Positions 1,726-34,836 of a stretch of 35,666 nucleotides of DNA are shown piece after piece. Position 1 is the stretch's first letter. Every line of letters begins with the position of its first letter. A program made the position numbers and the translations under genes. Under the pieces are notes generated by a model. It was not told the origin of the DNA and ran no database searches. It worked only from the letters and a program-made list of their open reading frames with translations. The stretch spans positions 1 to 35,666 of IMG/VR virus record IMGVR_UViG_3300046007_002678, one strand, 5' to 3'. This DNA is from a virus.

Positions 1726-2267
1726 AACAATCAGAATCAATACTAAACTTAAGCAAGGCACTATTTGACTTTCAAAGTAAGGCGGTTAAGGTAATCAAGA
1801 AAGCCGACAACCCGTTCTTTAAATCAAAGTACGCGGATTTACCAAGCATCTTAGATGAAATACACCCGCATTTAATTTCGTGCGGTTTGGTTATATCTCA
1901 ATTGCCAGACGGTGACGGTTTAACAACTATGCTTATTCACGCCAATAGCGGTGAGTATATTTCAGCTAATTCAACTATGCACCCAACGAAGTCAGACCCG
2001 CAATCAATAGGCAGCGCGATAACCTATCACAGACGCTACGCATTGTGTTCTATTTTAGGCTTAAATGTAGATGAAGACGATGACGGTAATAAGGCAAGCG
2101 CACCAACACAAACCGCACAACCCGACTTACCTTGGTTGAATAAAGATACACAAGGATTCAACCAAGCGGTACAGCACTTAAAGCAAGGCGGAACGATTGC
2201 CGACATTAGAAAGAAATTTAAAGTGTCTAAGGAAACGGAACAACTTTTAACAGCAGCAGCAAAATGA
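1722..2267 (+). CDS. erf: ERF-family single-strand annealing protein
   Basis: The N-terminal 115 residues carry the ERF signature: NPFFKSKYADLPSILD, a GL-x-ISQ strand, then a SAITYHRRYALCSILGL segment followed by DEDDDGN. ERF proteins bind single-stranded DNA and anneal complementary strands during phage recombination and genome circularisation. The residues after about 125 form a variable tail that ends in a charged helix. I chose ATG 1722 because it forms an ATGA overlap with the preceding stop, the usual junction in this operon; an in-frame ATG at 1710 would add four residues. Confidence 0.85.
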   Translation: MKQSESILNLSKALFDFQSKAVKVIKKADNPFFKSKYADLPSILDEIHPHLISCGLVISQLPDGDGLTTMLIHANSGEYISANSTMHPTKSDPQSIGSAITYHRRYALCSILGLNVDEDDDGNKASAPTQTAQPDLPWLNKDTQGFNQAVQHLKQGGTIADIRKKFKVSKETEQLLTAAAK

Positions 2268-2554
2268 ATAAAGTAACTAAACCCCGCAACTTTGTACACA
2301 TGACCTCACAAGATTGGGCGTTGTACATCCAAACCTTTGAGCCTCAGAACATAGAGGAAGCAAACGAATACTTAGATGACTTAGTTGCCTATTCAAAGAC
2401 TGGCAACATACCATCAGGAATCTCAGCAATGCGAATGAGGCGTTTAAAAGTAGACTTTCCTCAGTTGGATTCTATGAAATGTGTACGCATTGAAGGAAAC
2501 GACAAGGCAGAGCAATCACAGATACAAGAGGGATTCTTTGGGAACAAGTTATGA
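2264..2554 (+). CDS. Hypothetical protein, 96 aa
   Basis: I do not recognise this protein. It has an acidic central helix region (EEANEYLDDLVAY) and a basic segment MRMRRLKVDF. Both ends overlap their neighbours by 4 bases (ATGA), so it is cotranslated with the ERF gene upstream and the next ORF. Its position suggests a recombination accessory, but nothing in the sequence proves that. Confidence 0.7.
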   Translation: MNKVTKPRNFVHMTSQDWALYIQTFEPQNIEEANEYLDDLVAYSKTGNIPSGISAMRMRRLKVDFPQLDSMKCVRIEGNDKAEQSQIQEGFFGNKL

Positions 2555-2943
2555 AAACAGTAACGCCATTTAACCAAATAGAACCTGAGTTGCTATCCAT
2601 GCAGAAGTTTCTTGAAATGGAATACGACACCTCAAATGATGAAATGGTATTAACCCGTGCGCAAAAGTTAGAACACATTGTGGCAAGGTCGGGTAAGTTA
2701 TGCGCGGATGCACGTTATCACAGAGATGTAATGACAAGCACGGCAATAATGGACACCTTGAAAGAATCACTTGCACAAGGGGGTTACTCACCTTCGCTGA
2801 TTAATAAAAAGGTTGATTCCCTTTGCATGGATTTCAACTATATTGAAAAGTGGGCGGAAAGGGTTAATAGGACAAGTACACACCAGTTAGAGTTTTCGCG
2901 GACGGTGATAAGTAACAATAAGGCAAAGCGTTCACTTATTTAG
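2551..2943 (+). CDS. Hypothetical helical protein, 130 aa
   Basis: This is a mostly helical protein of unknown function, with no membrane segment and no recognisable metal-binding motif. It ends the methyltransferase-ERF operon. Its stop codon lies inside the palindrome of the next promoter (2938-2956), so the regulatory site overlaps coding sequence. Confidence 0.7.
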   Translation: MKTVTPFNQIEPELLSMQKFLEMEYDTSNDEMVLTRAQKLEHIVARSGKLCADARYHRDVMTSTAIMDTLKESLAQGGYSPSLINKKVDSLCMDFNYIEKWAERVNRTSTHQLEFSRTVISNNKAKRSLI

Positions 2944-2997
2944 AATGATTCTAAATTATAAAAAGTGCTTGCACAATTGAGGGGTGACTATTTACTT
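2938..2997 (+). promoter_or_regulatory. Palindrome-linked early promoter, copy A
   Basis: The odd palindrome ATTTAGAATGATTCTAAAT (2938-2956) is followed by AAAAGTGC and the -33 TTG at 2969-2971. The -7 box is degenerate (TATTTACT at about 2989, or TACTTCGC a few bases later), unlike the other copies, so this promoter may be weak or depend on an activator. It drives the gene at 3005. Confidence 0.7.
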
Positions 2998-3004
2998 CGC
3001 AGAC

Positions 3005-3352
3005 ATGATAACAGAAAACCAATTAAACGATAGGCATTTCTTAGATAGCATTCCTGAAACCATTAGACCCGTAATGCGCGACAATGTAGTTTTAGACCAG
3101 CTACTAAGAAACATTAACGAATTAAGCGAGCAGGTAGACGCAGAAACACCCGCTGAGTGCATAATAGAGCAGTATTTTGATAATGAGTTAGCAGATGGGT
3201 TAGAACAAAGTATTGCTTGTGCTAAGTATTGCGTAGATAATGGCGGCATGACAGATGCTGAATTTCAAAGATTAATAATAGTAGATATTTGTCGGGCATT
3301 GAATGAACACTTGCAGGATGTTTATTTGCAAATTATGCCTGGCTTAGGTTAA
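3005..3352 (+). CDS. Hypothetical acidic protein, 115 aa
   Basis: I do not recognise this protein. It is acidic and helical, with a cysteine-containing middle part (ECIIEQYF, ACAKYC). It is a single gene between two copies of the palindrome promoter, so it is probably expressed alone. I chose ATG 3005 because the -7 region lies just upstream; an in-frame GTG at 2984 would start inside the promoter. Confidence 0.7.
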   Translation: MITENQLNDRHFLDSIPETIRPVMRDNVVLDQLLRNINELSEQVDAETPAECIIEQYFDNELADGLEQSIACAKYCVDNGGMTDAEFQRLIIVDICRALNEHLQDVYLQIMPGLG

Positions 3353-11201: not shown

Positions 11202-11782
11202 ACATTAACCGCGCACAATTAGAGGCATTAGCAAATGGGGTATTTGATTCACTAGGGGAAGACCCGTCTAAATACGACCCCGCCAATAATACCCTAGAGG
11301 AACAAATCCTAGCGGCTGCGGCTAATCAGTTAGTTGAGATGCTGAGGGTCTCACTTCAGGAAAAGAAAGGCACGGCAACCCGGGATTTGTTACAATCATT
11401 AGAAACAAGTCAAACCACTAAATCAGGGGACACGGTTAACGCTAAGATAGTAGGAAGTGAACATTGGAAATACTTTGAGTACGGGAGAAAGCGGGGAAAG
11501 ATGCCACCGATTAAAAGTATTGAGGAATGGATAACAGCTAAGGGGATAGCGGTAAGAAAATCCAAGGGGGAAAGTAAGCAGTCAGTTTTAGACAGAAGGC
11601 GGTCAATGGCTATCGCTATCGCTAAGAAGATAGGCGCAAAGGGAACTATTAAAAGATTCGGATATAAAGGTTCGGACTTTATCAAAGAAGTTTTAACAGA
11701 CCAAAACCTTCAAGTCATATCCGACATCATAGCGGAAAAGTACGGAATGAAGTTGGCTATCTACGCCACTACGGAAGAATAG
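11198..11782 (+). CDS. HK97 gp10-like neck/tail completion protein
   Basis: The middle part, HWKYFEYGRKRGKMPPIKSI then EEWITAKGI (about residues 88-117), is typical of gp10-like proteins that have an E-x-G-x-(x)-PxPF/PPxxxI core and help to join head and tail. The rest is helical and basic. Length 194 aa is somewhat larger than the usual 120-160. Its start overlaps the stop of the shifted chaperone frame as ATGA, and a late promoter element sits directly in front. Confidence 0.6.
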   Translation: MNINRAQLEALANGVFDSLGEDPSKYDPANNTLEEQILAAAANQLVEMLRVSLQEKKGTATRDLLQSLETSQTTKSGDTVNAKIVGSEHWKYFEYGRKRGKMPPIKSIEEWITAKGIAVRKSKGESKQSVLDRRRSMAIAIAKKIGAKGTIKRFGYKGSDFIKEVLTDQNLQVISDIIAEKYGMKLAIYATTEE

Positions 11783-20295: not shown

Positions 20296-20673
20296 ATGGT
20301 GATAATAAGCAAAGGGGCAAGTAACACTTTAATAGTAACCGTTACGGAAAAGGTCACTATTAATAACCCCTTTTTTCTTATACATTTTAAAGACATGATT
20401 ACAAGTCAGCAAACTTCTTTTATTATCACAAACACCTCAACGCATACAGAAAGGTATGATGAGTTCACTTTTGTTGAGGGTAGCAATAGCGCAAAGACTT
20501 TAAACATTGGAGAGTATGTCTATACGATATACGCGCAGACATCCAACAGCAACACTAACATAGCCAACGCAGACGAGGAAGTAGAAAGAGGAATCGCCAT
20601 GGTTCGCCATACAGAAAATACTTTCCCTTCTAACACTATAACCACAACCTATAAACAAAATGTTATCAGCTAA
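20296..20673 (+). CDS. Hypothetical virion-region protein, 125 aa
   Basis: The product is strand rich (ASNTLIVTVTEKVTI, SFIITNTSTHTERYDEFTFV, LNIGEYVYTIYAQTS), with no membrane segment. Small proteins of this kind stand before portal genes in related phages; I do not know the function. I chose ATG 20296 because a terminator and promoter lie upstream; the frame is open back to 20236, inside the terminator. It overlaps the portal start by 14 bases. Confidence 0.65.
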   Translation: MVIISKGASNTLIVTVTEKVTINNPFFLIHFKDMITSQQTSFIITNTSTHTERYDEFTFVEGSNSAKTLNIGEYVYTIYAQTSNSNTNIANADEEVERGIAMVRHTENTFPSNTITTTYKQNVIS

Positions 20674-32589: not shown

Positions 32590-33330
32590 ATGAACGTGAT
32601 TAATTTTAGCGGTGGAAGAACGTCAGCGTACATGACAAGGCGATTAATAGACGAAGGTGGCGAATACTTAGTTACATTCCAGAACACGGGCAAAGAAATG
32701 CCTCAAACACTTGACTTCATAAACGAGTGCGATAAGATGTGGAATCTTAATATACTTTGGTTAGAGTATCGCTTTGGCAATGCTTTTGAAGTTGTGACTT
32801 ACGAGACCGCTTCACGGAATGGCAGACCGTTTTATGAGTTAATAGCGCACAATAAGCAATTCTTACCCAATCAACGCATGAGATACTGCACCCGCGAAAT
32901 GAAAATAAACACGCTTAAACGCTATCTTAAAAGCATAGGCATAAAAGATTATACTTCGTTCAATGGAATACGTTATGACGAGCCTCGCAGGTGGGCTAAG
33001 ATTAAAGCAAGCGATTACGATGTAGAGTTGCCTTTGGTTAAATGGAAAACAACCAAGGCAGATGTATTGAAGTTTTGGAAACAACAAGATTTCGACCTTA
33101 TGGTTAACGAACCTTACGGTAACTGCGATTGCTGCTTTTTAAAAGGCAAAGGTAAATTAGCTATCATAGCAAAGGAAAAACCAGAGTTATTTGATTGGTG
33201 GATTGCCCATGAAAAAAACTCTACATTCAAAAAAGAAATCAGTTACGAGCAAATAAGAGATAAAGCACAGAAACAAATAGGTCTTTGGGATAACGACCCA
33301 AGTTTTGAATGCTTCTGCAATATAGATTAA
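32590..33330 (+). CDS. PAPS-reductase-like PP-loop protein
   Basis: The PP-loop is NFSGGRTSAYMT at residues 5-16, the nucleotide-binding signature of the adenine nucleotide alpha-hydrolase superfamily including PAPS reductases and DndC. Cysteines at 100, 179, 181, 182, 241 and 243 could bind an Fe-S cluster, as in DndC-like members. The 246-aa product could act in sulfur transfer to nucleic acid or small molecules, or in nucleotide metabolism; phage versions are common but uncharacterised. It is the first sizeable gene of the early right operon. Confidence 0.7.
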   Translation: MNVINFSGGRTSAYMTRRLIDEGGEYLVTFQNTGKEMPQTLDFINECDKMWNLNILWLEYRFGNAFEVVTYETASRNGRPFYELIAHNKQFLPNQRMRYCTREMKINTLKRYLKSIGIKDYTSFNGIRYDEPRRWAKIKASDYDVELPLVKWKTTKADVLKFWKQQDFDLMVNEPYGNCDCCFLKGKGKLAIIAKEKPELFDWWIAHEKNSTFKKEISYEQIRDKAQKQIGLWDNDPSFECFCNID

Positions 33331-33331
33331 T

Positions 33332-33362
33332 TTGCATAAGTAAAAACTTATCCGTATACTTG
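33332..33362 (+). promoter_or_regulatory. Promoter of the replication operon
   Basis: TTG at 33332-33334, a 20-base spacer and TATACTTG at 33355-33362. The -7 box has one departure from TAnnTTTG. The palindrome found at the other early promoters is absent. Confidence 0.65.
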
Positions 33363-33367
33363 CAACA

Positions 33368-33484
33368 CACGACAAGACTTGAAAATGAAAAAGAACTTTA
33401 GGGGCGGGCATTGGAATGGGGTATCTCCCGTTCGGTCTTGTCGTGGGATTAAAAACCCGCCCCTTACTATTTTTACACGACATG
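33368..33484 (+). ncRNA. Structured leader RNA with interleaved inverted repeats
   Basis: CACGACAAGAC (33368-33378) is the perfect complement of GTCTTGTCGTG (33435-33445). AGGGGCGGG (33400-33408) is the perfect complement of CCCGCCCCT (33456-33464). The two pairs interleave, which allows an H-type pseudoknot. TGTCGTG (33439-33445) can instead pair with CACGACA (33476-33482), which touches the first base of the ATG at 33482. So two alternative folds exist, one covering the start codon. This fits a regulatory leader. Confidence 0.55.
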
Positions 33485-33495
33485 GCAAAATCTAA
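33385..33495 (+). CDS. Possible leader peptide, 36 aa
   Basis: The frame gives MKKNFRGGHWNGVSPVRSC and goes on RGIKNPPLTIFTRHGKI, ending past the replication gene start. It has an ATG shortly after the promoter and covers both inverted repeats. Translation here would melt the structures. It may be a leader peptide or a by-product of the RNA's base composition. Confidence 0.35.
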   Translation: MKKNFRGGHWNGVSPVRSCRGIKNPPLTIFTRHGKI

Positions 33496-34228
33496 GAAAT
33501 CTTTTATTCTCTATTGTGATTTGATTCACACGTTAGAGAAAATGCCTGATGACAAAGCAGGGCAACTATTCAAACACATATTGAGGTATGTAAACGACCT
33601 TGACCCAGTTACAGATGACTTAATAGTCAACCTAACATTTGAGCCTATAAAGCAGCAGCTAAAGCGCGACTTAATGGCGTGGGAGAAAACCAACGAAGCA
33701 CAAAGTTTATCGGGTAGAATAGGCAATCTAAAGCGTTGGCATAGGGATTTATACGATTTGTATTTAAAGGGTGCTCGAATTGAAGAGTTAGAAGTAATCG
33801 CATTTAATCGCAAACCATCGCTACCCGATACAACCCAATCGCCCCCAATCGCGAATATCGCTGATACTGTAACTGATAATGATACTGATAATGTAAGTGA
33901 TATAAAAATAGAAGAACCGCCTAAAGGCGTACCCCATAAAATTTTTGTTCCTGATTTTGAATCTTATCCAATAATTTACAGACAAGGTTTAAAATTGTGG
34001 TGGGAGTACAAAATAGAAAAAAAACAAAAGTACAAGCCAACGGGGTGGGAAACGTTTGTTAAATCGGCAATGGAAGACTTCCCTGATGCGGTCAAGTTTA
34101 ATGAAGCATTGAAACATAGCATTTCAAACAATTATAGCGGCTTATATCCAAAGAATAAGCAAGAGGAAAAGAAAGATGTAACGCCTCCTAGTATGGTTAA
34201 CATGAAAAACGACCCAAGATTTTTATGA
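33482..34228 (+). CDS. Replication protein, DUF6291-like N-terminus (replisome organiser type)
   Basis: The product starts MAKSKKSFILYCDLIHTLEK, then MPDDKAGQLFKHILRYVNDL and the region FEPIKQQLKRDL, which matches the N-terminal domain seen in putative phage replisome organisers. A linker of Asp/Thr/Asn follows (about 140-165), then a helical C-terminal domain (YRQGLKLWWEYKIEKKQKYK, PTGWETFVKSAM). Such proteins bind the phage origin and hand over to the helicase loader, which is the next gene (ATGA overlap). I chose ATG 33482; the upstream in-frame ATG 33416 lies in the structured leader. Confidence 0.75.
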   Translation: MAKSKKSFILYCDLIHTLEKMPDDKAGQLFKHILRYVNDLDPVTDDLIVNLTFEPIKQQLKRDLMAWEKTNEAQSLSGRIGNLKRWHRDLYDLYLKGARIEELEVIAFNRKPSLPDTTQSPPIANIADTVTDNDTDNVSDIKIEEPPKGVPHKIFVPDFESYPIIYRQGLKLWWEYKIEKKQKYKPTGWETFVKSAMEDFPDAVKFNEALKHSISNNYSGLYPKNKQEEKKDVTPPSMVNMKNDPRFL

Positions 34229-34836
34229 ATCAATTGGTAGAAAATTATTTGAAGCTGTTGGAAAAAAACAAACCACAGCCAAAGGTTCAAAGGGTAGTAA
34301 GCCCTAGAGAACTTCGCGAGTGTTGGGTTAAGACTGGTTTAACCAAAGTTGAATCCTACGAATACAACGAAATAGCGGACACGATTTTAAAGATATGCTT
34401 TGCCCCTGACAGACAAGTTAAGGGCGCGGTAATATGTGGAAGCAAAGGAATAGGTAAGACATTGAACATGGACATATTCGCTACTATCAATACTCATATG
34501 TTTGGGGTTAAGACTAAGTTTTATGAAGTAGGTGAGATTGAATTGATGTACAAATTAGAGGGCGCAAACTTTTTAGAATCGTTAACAGATATACCTTGCC
34601 TAATAATCAATGACGCGGGTGCTGAGAACCTGTTAAACGACTTCGGTACGCATAGAAATATAATTTCGGACATACTTATACTCCGTTACCGTGCGTTTCA
34701 AAAGAGAGGTCTTAAAACGTATTTAACAAGTAACATGACGTGGAAAGCAATCAACGAACATTACGGGGATAGACTGGAAGATAGGTTCAGGGAGATGTTT
34801 TACAAGGTTGAAATAGTGGGGGAAAGCAAGAGATGA
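34225..34836 (+). CDS. DnaC-like AAA+ helicase loader
   Basis: Walker A is GSKGIGKT at residues 72-79 and Walker B is CLIINDAG at 125-132, followed by a sensor-like segment LKTYLTSNMTW and an arginine-finger-type part DRLEDRFREM near the end. The 203-aa length fits DnaC/DnaI-type loaders that place the host DnaB helicase on the origin. The phage appears to lack its own helicase and polymerase, so use of the host replisome is expected. Confidence 0.85.
   Translation: MNQLVENYLKLLEKNKPQPKVQRVVSPRELRECWVKTGLTKVESYEYNEIADTILKICFAPDRQVKGAVICGSKGIGKTLNMDIFATINTHMFGVKTKFYEVGEIELMYKLEGANFLESLTDIPCLIINDAGAENLLNDFGTHRNIISDILILRYRAFQKRGLKTYLTSNMTWKAINEHYGDRLEDRFREMFYKVEIVGESKR

Follow-up and report, generated by a model that had tools for sequence, protein, structure and literature searches.

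The replication operon of the window, by which we mean the whole analysed stretch of an IMG/VR virus record of 35,666 bases, is preceded by a leader in which two perfect helices interleave, and sequence comparison indicates that this cis-acting pseudoknot leader probably gates the operon, by capping of the start codon and coupling to a leader frame in the window and probably by attenuation in its relatives. The interleaved or kissing pairing of the leaders is well supported by sequence covariation. The leaders may well represent a new class of phage cis-regulatory RNA, common to Bacteroidota phage replication operons with unrelated initiators, in which a core, either pseudoknot or kissing-loop, whose private arms vary freely would be combined with one of two interchangeable outputs (a U-run, or capping by a third arm copy, A2, together with a translated leader frame) and would control timing or dosage of phage DNA replication.

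The elements of the leader and the genes behind it are listed in Table 1. The promoter, which was also matched at the same site by a sigma-70-like scan, ends 5 nt 5' of arm A, in agreement with the initial annotation, which placed the start of the leader within about 10 bases of a promoter. From the position of the promoter, transcription is expected to start at about 33366-33370, where A begins. The TAnnTTTG box of this promoter precedes A in relatives as well.

Table 1. Elements of the leader and the replication operon in the window.
Feature	Position	Strand	Basis or remark
Bacteroidota-type promoter: TTTG (33331-33334), 20 nt, TATACTTG (33355-33362)	33331-33362	+	read from sequence
Arm A, CACGACAAGAC	33368-33378	+	5' end of expected transcript; perfect inverted repeat; covaries in relatives
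Leader frame (uORF, 36 codons)	33385-33495	+	open frame; runs through B, P4, A', B' and A2
Arm B, AGGGGCGGG	33400-33408	+	perfect inverted repeat with 33456-33464
P4 hairpin, GAAUGGGG-UAUC-UCCCGUUC	33414-33433	+	between B and A'; folding, -10.6 kcal/mol
Arm A', GTCTTGTCGTG	33435-33445	+	partner of A, alternatively of A2
Arm B', CCCGCCCCT	33456-33464	+	partner of B; perfect inverted repeat
U-rich stretch, TACTATTTTT	33465-33474	+	3' of B'; weak counterpart of the U-run of relatives
A2, third copy of A, ACACGACA	33475-33482	+	contains first base of the ATG at 33482
DUF6291 replication protein, first operon gene	33482-34228	+	PF19808, E 1.2e-19; PHROG 19415, E 2.9e-27
DnaC-like helicase loader	34225-34836	+	phrog_50, E 3.5e-13
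Protein with DnaA C-terminal helix-turn-helix	35018-35509	+	PF08299, E 1.9e-16

Both arm pairs that had been described at this site, one of 11 and one of 9 bases, could be confirmed: A and A' pair in 11/11 and B and B' in 9/9 positions, and they interleave in the order A-B-A'-B'. The A helix is lengthened by one G.U pair (33379/33434). The third arm copy claimed at the ATG is also present, as an 8-nt repeat of 33367-33374 that includes the A of the start codon and has its complement at 33439-33445. The small frame said to cross the element is open and spans all of it, starting 6 nt 3' of A and with a stop codon that begins 11 nt into the replication gene. Hairpins at the position of P4 were seen by eye in four relatives (L072, L017, L098, L022).

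Besides PHROG 19415, the DUF6291 protein gave weak matches to replication-initiation PHROGs. Nearly all aligned homologues begin with MAxxKKSF at 33482, and a longer frame starting at 33416 was ruled out as the start of the gene by this alignment. Together with the DnaC-like loader and the DnaA-type helix-turn-helix protein, the DUF6291 protein makes up a phage replication module.

Nested folds of the window leader have close energies of -31.5 (A:A'), -32.1 (B:B') and -27.8 kcal/mol (A':A2). The A:A' fold leaves the first two bases of the ATG single-stranded, and in the A':A2 fold the A2 stretch up to the ATG is paired. The folding programs used do not score A:A' and B:B' together as a pseudoknot, though both can coexist, and since minimum free energy (MFE) folding cannot show pseudoknots, its z value of -1.1 is uninformative for this leader.

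DNA similarity searches with the window leader found no relative, because the arms diverge. Relatives of the DUF6291 protein were therefore fetched and their upstream regions scanned for interleaved helices, which revealed the same parts in the same order with different arm sequences, for example GCTATCAAGG..AAGCCCCC..CCTTGATAGC..GGGGGCTT in locus L005 and TTCTCTCACAA..ACCGCTAAA..TTGTGAGAGGG..TTTAGCGGT in Cellulophaga phage phi13:2. About 100 non-redundant phage leaders share the layout promoter, A, B, A', B' and start codon, again with differing arms. The covariation check that had been proposed for related leaders turned out in favour of the pairing, as arms are replaced wholesale between phages with their complementarity kept, including double changes and G.U pairs. 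A descriptor consisting of promoter, interleaved helices, U-run and ATG scored 54.5 for the window leader and gave 75 matches in 766 kb of related loci versus 24 in shuffled DNA; at a score of at least 40, 39 matches were obtained versus 1 in dinucleotide-shuffled DNA. Among 160 further DUF6291 loci, some of them refetched, the element was present in 93. At a score of at least 36, 135 non-redundant matches were listed, some of which are due to chance, and the extra matches of an ungrouped scan that did not require the U-run were mostly chance pairs in coding DNA. A second match in the window, at 20372 before another gene, was weak, with a score of 33 that lies at chance level.

The largest subfamily, sub I, presents A on the loop of its 5' hairpin (H1) and A' on that of a second hairpin (H3); H3 is enclosed by the B:B' stem (P2), which is followed by a U-run. 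By its sequence, the sub I leader is a predicted kissing-loop RNA. In the example L316 the parts follow each other as CGAGTT-CATCCTAC-ATTATA-AACTCG-TAAAGGTATTATT-GACCCTTTGAA-TGAA-TGTG-AG and, directly after AG, GTAGGATG-CACA-GGAT-TTCAAGGGGTT-TTTTAT. In a MAFFT alignment of 33 leaders of sub I, a set separate from the window's own sub form, which has few members, 94.9% of cells pair, compared to 67% in shuffled alignments and 34-48% with slid structures. Double changes were found in 24 of 29 pairs and in 268 cells versus 82 in shuffled alignments, and none of 500 shuffles was as good. P2 contains many G.U pairs. RNAalifold independently predicted H1, P2 and H3. Pairing of A with A' and of B with B' is selected for by the descriptor, but H1 and H3 lie outside this selection. 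As a check on selection bias, sites were also picked by the loop motif alone, without use of pairing. An exact 7-nt complement of A was then found 25-70 nt downstream at 25 of 48 motif sites linked to a TAnnTTTG box, versus 0.4% with swapped A, and at 0 of 175 loop-motif sites without this box. The covariance model R1, derived from sub I, misses the window leader.

In the minority form to which the window belongs, A frequently exceeds its usual length (up to 14 bp) and the H1 hairpin is weak; a frame opening shortly 3' of A extends across the element and reaches the gene start or enters the gene. An uninterrupted frame of this kind leads up to the gene start in the window and in roughly ten relatives; carriers are L010/L016, L017, L022, L071, L072, L073 and L083, and the frames of L075 and L446 begin further upstream. 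In the two Cellulophaga phages indels in T-runs compensate each other and the frame is kept. The encoded peptide is not conserved, since L073 and L083 differ mostly by replacement changes (by eye). As a general feature of the leader class the uORF was rejected, because it spans only 5/56 elements in sub I, and it was retained for the sub form of the window. A2 or a complete leader frame is missing from several sub II elements (L098, L051, L005), which weighs against the mechanism proposed below.

A third copy of A stands directly at the ATG in about eight elements. At least 7 nt are shared with A near the ATG in 9 elements, versus 0.9 by permutation with a maximum of 4; six of the nine copies abut the ATG (window, L072, L073, L083, L446, L522), and the other three look like chance. 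Shorter copies are present in L022, L553 and L002. One position changes in concert in A, A' and A2, being G/C/G in the window, T/A/T in L072 and L073, and C/G/C in L083, as pairing of A' with A as well as with A2 would predict. The recurrence of the copy with different sequences and this covariation strengthen the earlier proposal that A and A2 compete for A'.

Based on these observations, the following mechanism is proposed for the window. The transcript would begin at about A, and pairing of A with A' and of B with B' would give a pseudoknot with the P4 hairpin inside, a version of a class in whose usual form the loop of a 5' hairpin would kiss that of a hairpin inside the B:B' stem. When A' pairs with A the start codon would be free, and when it pairs with A2 the start codon would be covered, so that expression of the replication protein should be ON when the pseudoknot is formed. 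Since transcription yields A' earlier than A2, the A:A' helix should be the first to form. By initiating on the leader frame, a ribosome would cover A, then unwind the rest and stop just inside the gene, and leader translation and fold together would set the amount of initiator made by translational coupling. With A:A' formed first and A covered by the ribosome, the pseudoknot is taken as an ON state gated by leader translation. Members of sub I, which have the same core with a U-run and lack the leader frame, would probably act as transcription attenuators. The alternation of the A and A2 pairings in the cell, the direction of the switch, the coupling and the attenuation in relatives are steps that we infer. 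No ligand is indicated, and no conserved sequence resembling a ligand pocket was seen in the leaders.

Attenuator riboswitch leaders with loop-loop contacts carry a stem with a U-run, and their output is either the U-run or capping of the start codon. Sub I resembles them in its kissing-loop, its stem with U-run and the two kinds of output of the class, but matches no Rfam family, and its arms are free to change as long as the pairing is kept. An alternative is that the leaders are transcription attenuators only, with B:B' and the U-rich tract as intrinsic terminator, A:A' stabilising or preventing it, and A2 and the leader frame incidental. A stem with an immediate U-run, as expected for an intrinsic terminator, was present in 25/25 unselected sub I sites having the complement of A, and a U-run follows B' in 41/56 strong matches of a scan that did not require it (background 23%). 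Against this, B' in the window is followed by TACTATTTTTA, a poor terminator tract that makes attenuation doubtful there, the stem encloses 47 nt, and copies of A abutting the ATG are over-represented. Attenuation as the only function is thus rather unlikely, and start capping with leader-frame coupling is preferred for the window.

In the operator of T4 gene 32, an AU-rich tract extends from a pseudoknot to the start (PMC535899). The leader described here likewise belongs to a phage replication gene and combines a pseudoknot with an unstructured AU-rich tract to the start (33465-33481 in the window), as in the published T4 arrangement (PMC535899). A phage single-stranded DNA binding protein (SSB) or replication protein could accordingly bind the pseudoknot, spread over the tract and repress its own operon, and one of the copies in Flavobacterium phage tooticki6-1 indeed precedes an HNH-SSB operon. 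However, the T4 pseudoknot comprises ∼28 nt and the product is the SSB itself, whereas the leader comprises ∼100 nt, contains A2 and a leader frame, which autogenous repression leaves unexplained, and is followed by other genes: an SSB is seldom encoded by the first gene, which varies from phage to phage, and in the window this gene encodes the DUF6291 protein rather than an operator-binding SSB. Autogenous control of this kind is improbable.

The gene context was surveyed for elements found by the leader motif alone; part of the downstream genes was profile-scanned and the rest assigned by the look of their N-termini. The element stands before unrelated replication genes, namely DUF6291, DnaD-like loaders (phrog_2514), Lin1244_N and BT4734-like primases, and families sharing PHROG 19415 are also among the genes behind it. 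A restriction of the element to DUF6291 genes is ruled out by these other initiator families. DnaB-like helicase or primase/helicase genes follow the first genes of these operons. Exceptions include a DNA methyltransferase (L229), an HNH endonuclease (L252) and a PAPS-reductase-like gene (L336). The location at replication modules of unrelated initiators would also fit an element acting at the DNA level, as cruciforms or initiator sites of an origin or as a primer transcript (R-loop), and not as a gene regulator. This is most unlikely, because the arms begin at the expected transcription start, P2 contains G.U pairs and unpaired loop motifs are conserved, the orientation relative to promoter and ATG is always the same, and copies also stand before the HNH-SSB operon, the methyltransferase and the PAPS-reductase-like gene. 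A PAPS-reductase-like gene lies beside the element both in the window (32590-33330, upstream) and in L336, where it is located (2073-3287) downstream of a second copy.

Phage genomes that were scanned whole or in large part contain one or two copies with different arms. In tooticki6-1 (L157) the copies at 11677 and 12731, before the HNH-SSB and the DUF6291 operon, respectively, differ in their private arms. R1 found one copy in 14/20 viral records; in ∼690 sampled bacterial genomes, scanned to limited depth with a model that sees only sub I, it gave 0/395 and 1/299 matches, and the single match is to L560, a small contig carrying an initiator-like gene.

A pseudoknot and a leader frame directly before an initiator gene are also found at repZ/repA of IncI-alpha, IncB and IncL/M plasmids (ColIb-P9 repZ with leader peptide repY), where initiator translation is reported to be switched by the repZ pseudoknot (Asano and Mizobuchi, 1998, as cited in PMC10286972 and PMC10724649). 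Sequence comparison and covariation point to a pseudoknot in a replication initiator leader here as well. In the phage leader, by contrast, the transcript's extreme 5' end supplies the partner strand, a competing copy lies at the ATG and the carriers are Bacteroidota phages with no known sequence relationship to the plasmids. A copy-control target, at which an antisense RNA would bind the 5' loop and prevent the pseudoknot, would match the plasmid arrangement of pseudoknot and leader peptide before the initiator in the references given by the same two papers, but has very little probability, and control by antisense RNA was rejected, as an antisense -7 box was found in 5/108 elements versus 11.8 expected by chance and none over the element of the window. 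By analogy, the phage leader would work most like the IncI-alpha/IncB initiator pseudoknot with leader peptide, and it is filed as a member of neither the repZ/repA nor the T4 type.

The strand order of the leader is the same as that of HDV-like ribozymes (P1-P2-P3-P1'-P2'). An HDV-like ribozyme was ruled out, since P1 of the leader has 11-14 bp, there is no sign of the conserved core and no Rfam match was obtained even at E 10. At gathering threshold, no Rfam 15 family matched the window or any of 18 element-carrying loci, and with E up to 10 only chance matches were found, of miRNA/lncRNA type for the window leader, and likewise for L316. The initial annotation knew of no described element with this layout; a search among searchable papers likewise found no description of such an element, but the layout itself is a variant within a widespread class of leaders, most of which, as judged by alignment, take the form of the predicted kissing-loop with U-run.

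Regulatory RNA at plasmid replication genes is textbook knowledge. Phage replication modules whose initiators are unrelated seem to have a structured leader in common, which would mean that the RNA and not the protein is kept. Since the arms change completely, the element escapes sequence-based RNA searches, which hints at further elements of this kind lying unrecognised in phage genomes. The cultured Cellulophaga phages phi13:2 and phi19:3 and Flavobacterium phage tooticki6-1 carry the element, which thereby offers a testable handle on the timing of DNA replication in phages of an ecologically dominant phylum.

Several loci extend these observations. In two rumen Prevotellaceae loci (L137, L138) an element with H1, H3 and A:A' lies ∼330 nt upstream of the DUF6291 gene, from which the leader class may reach the Bacteroidales. 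A contig binned as Woesebacteria (L101) contains a 17-bp A:A' helix behind a Bacteroidota-type promoter upstream of DUF6291, which suggests a Bacteroidota phage contig in the wrong bin. One Capnocytophaga genome contains three near-identical DUF6291 loci with the same upstream stretch (L110, L111, L112). Finally, a stretch resembling GTTTATCNGTANCTTAAAAC..TTATTATTATG recurs from the U-run to a small ORF before DUF6291 in L011, L013, L018, L021, L038, L053 and L091, and is possibly a further translation signal.
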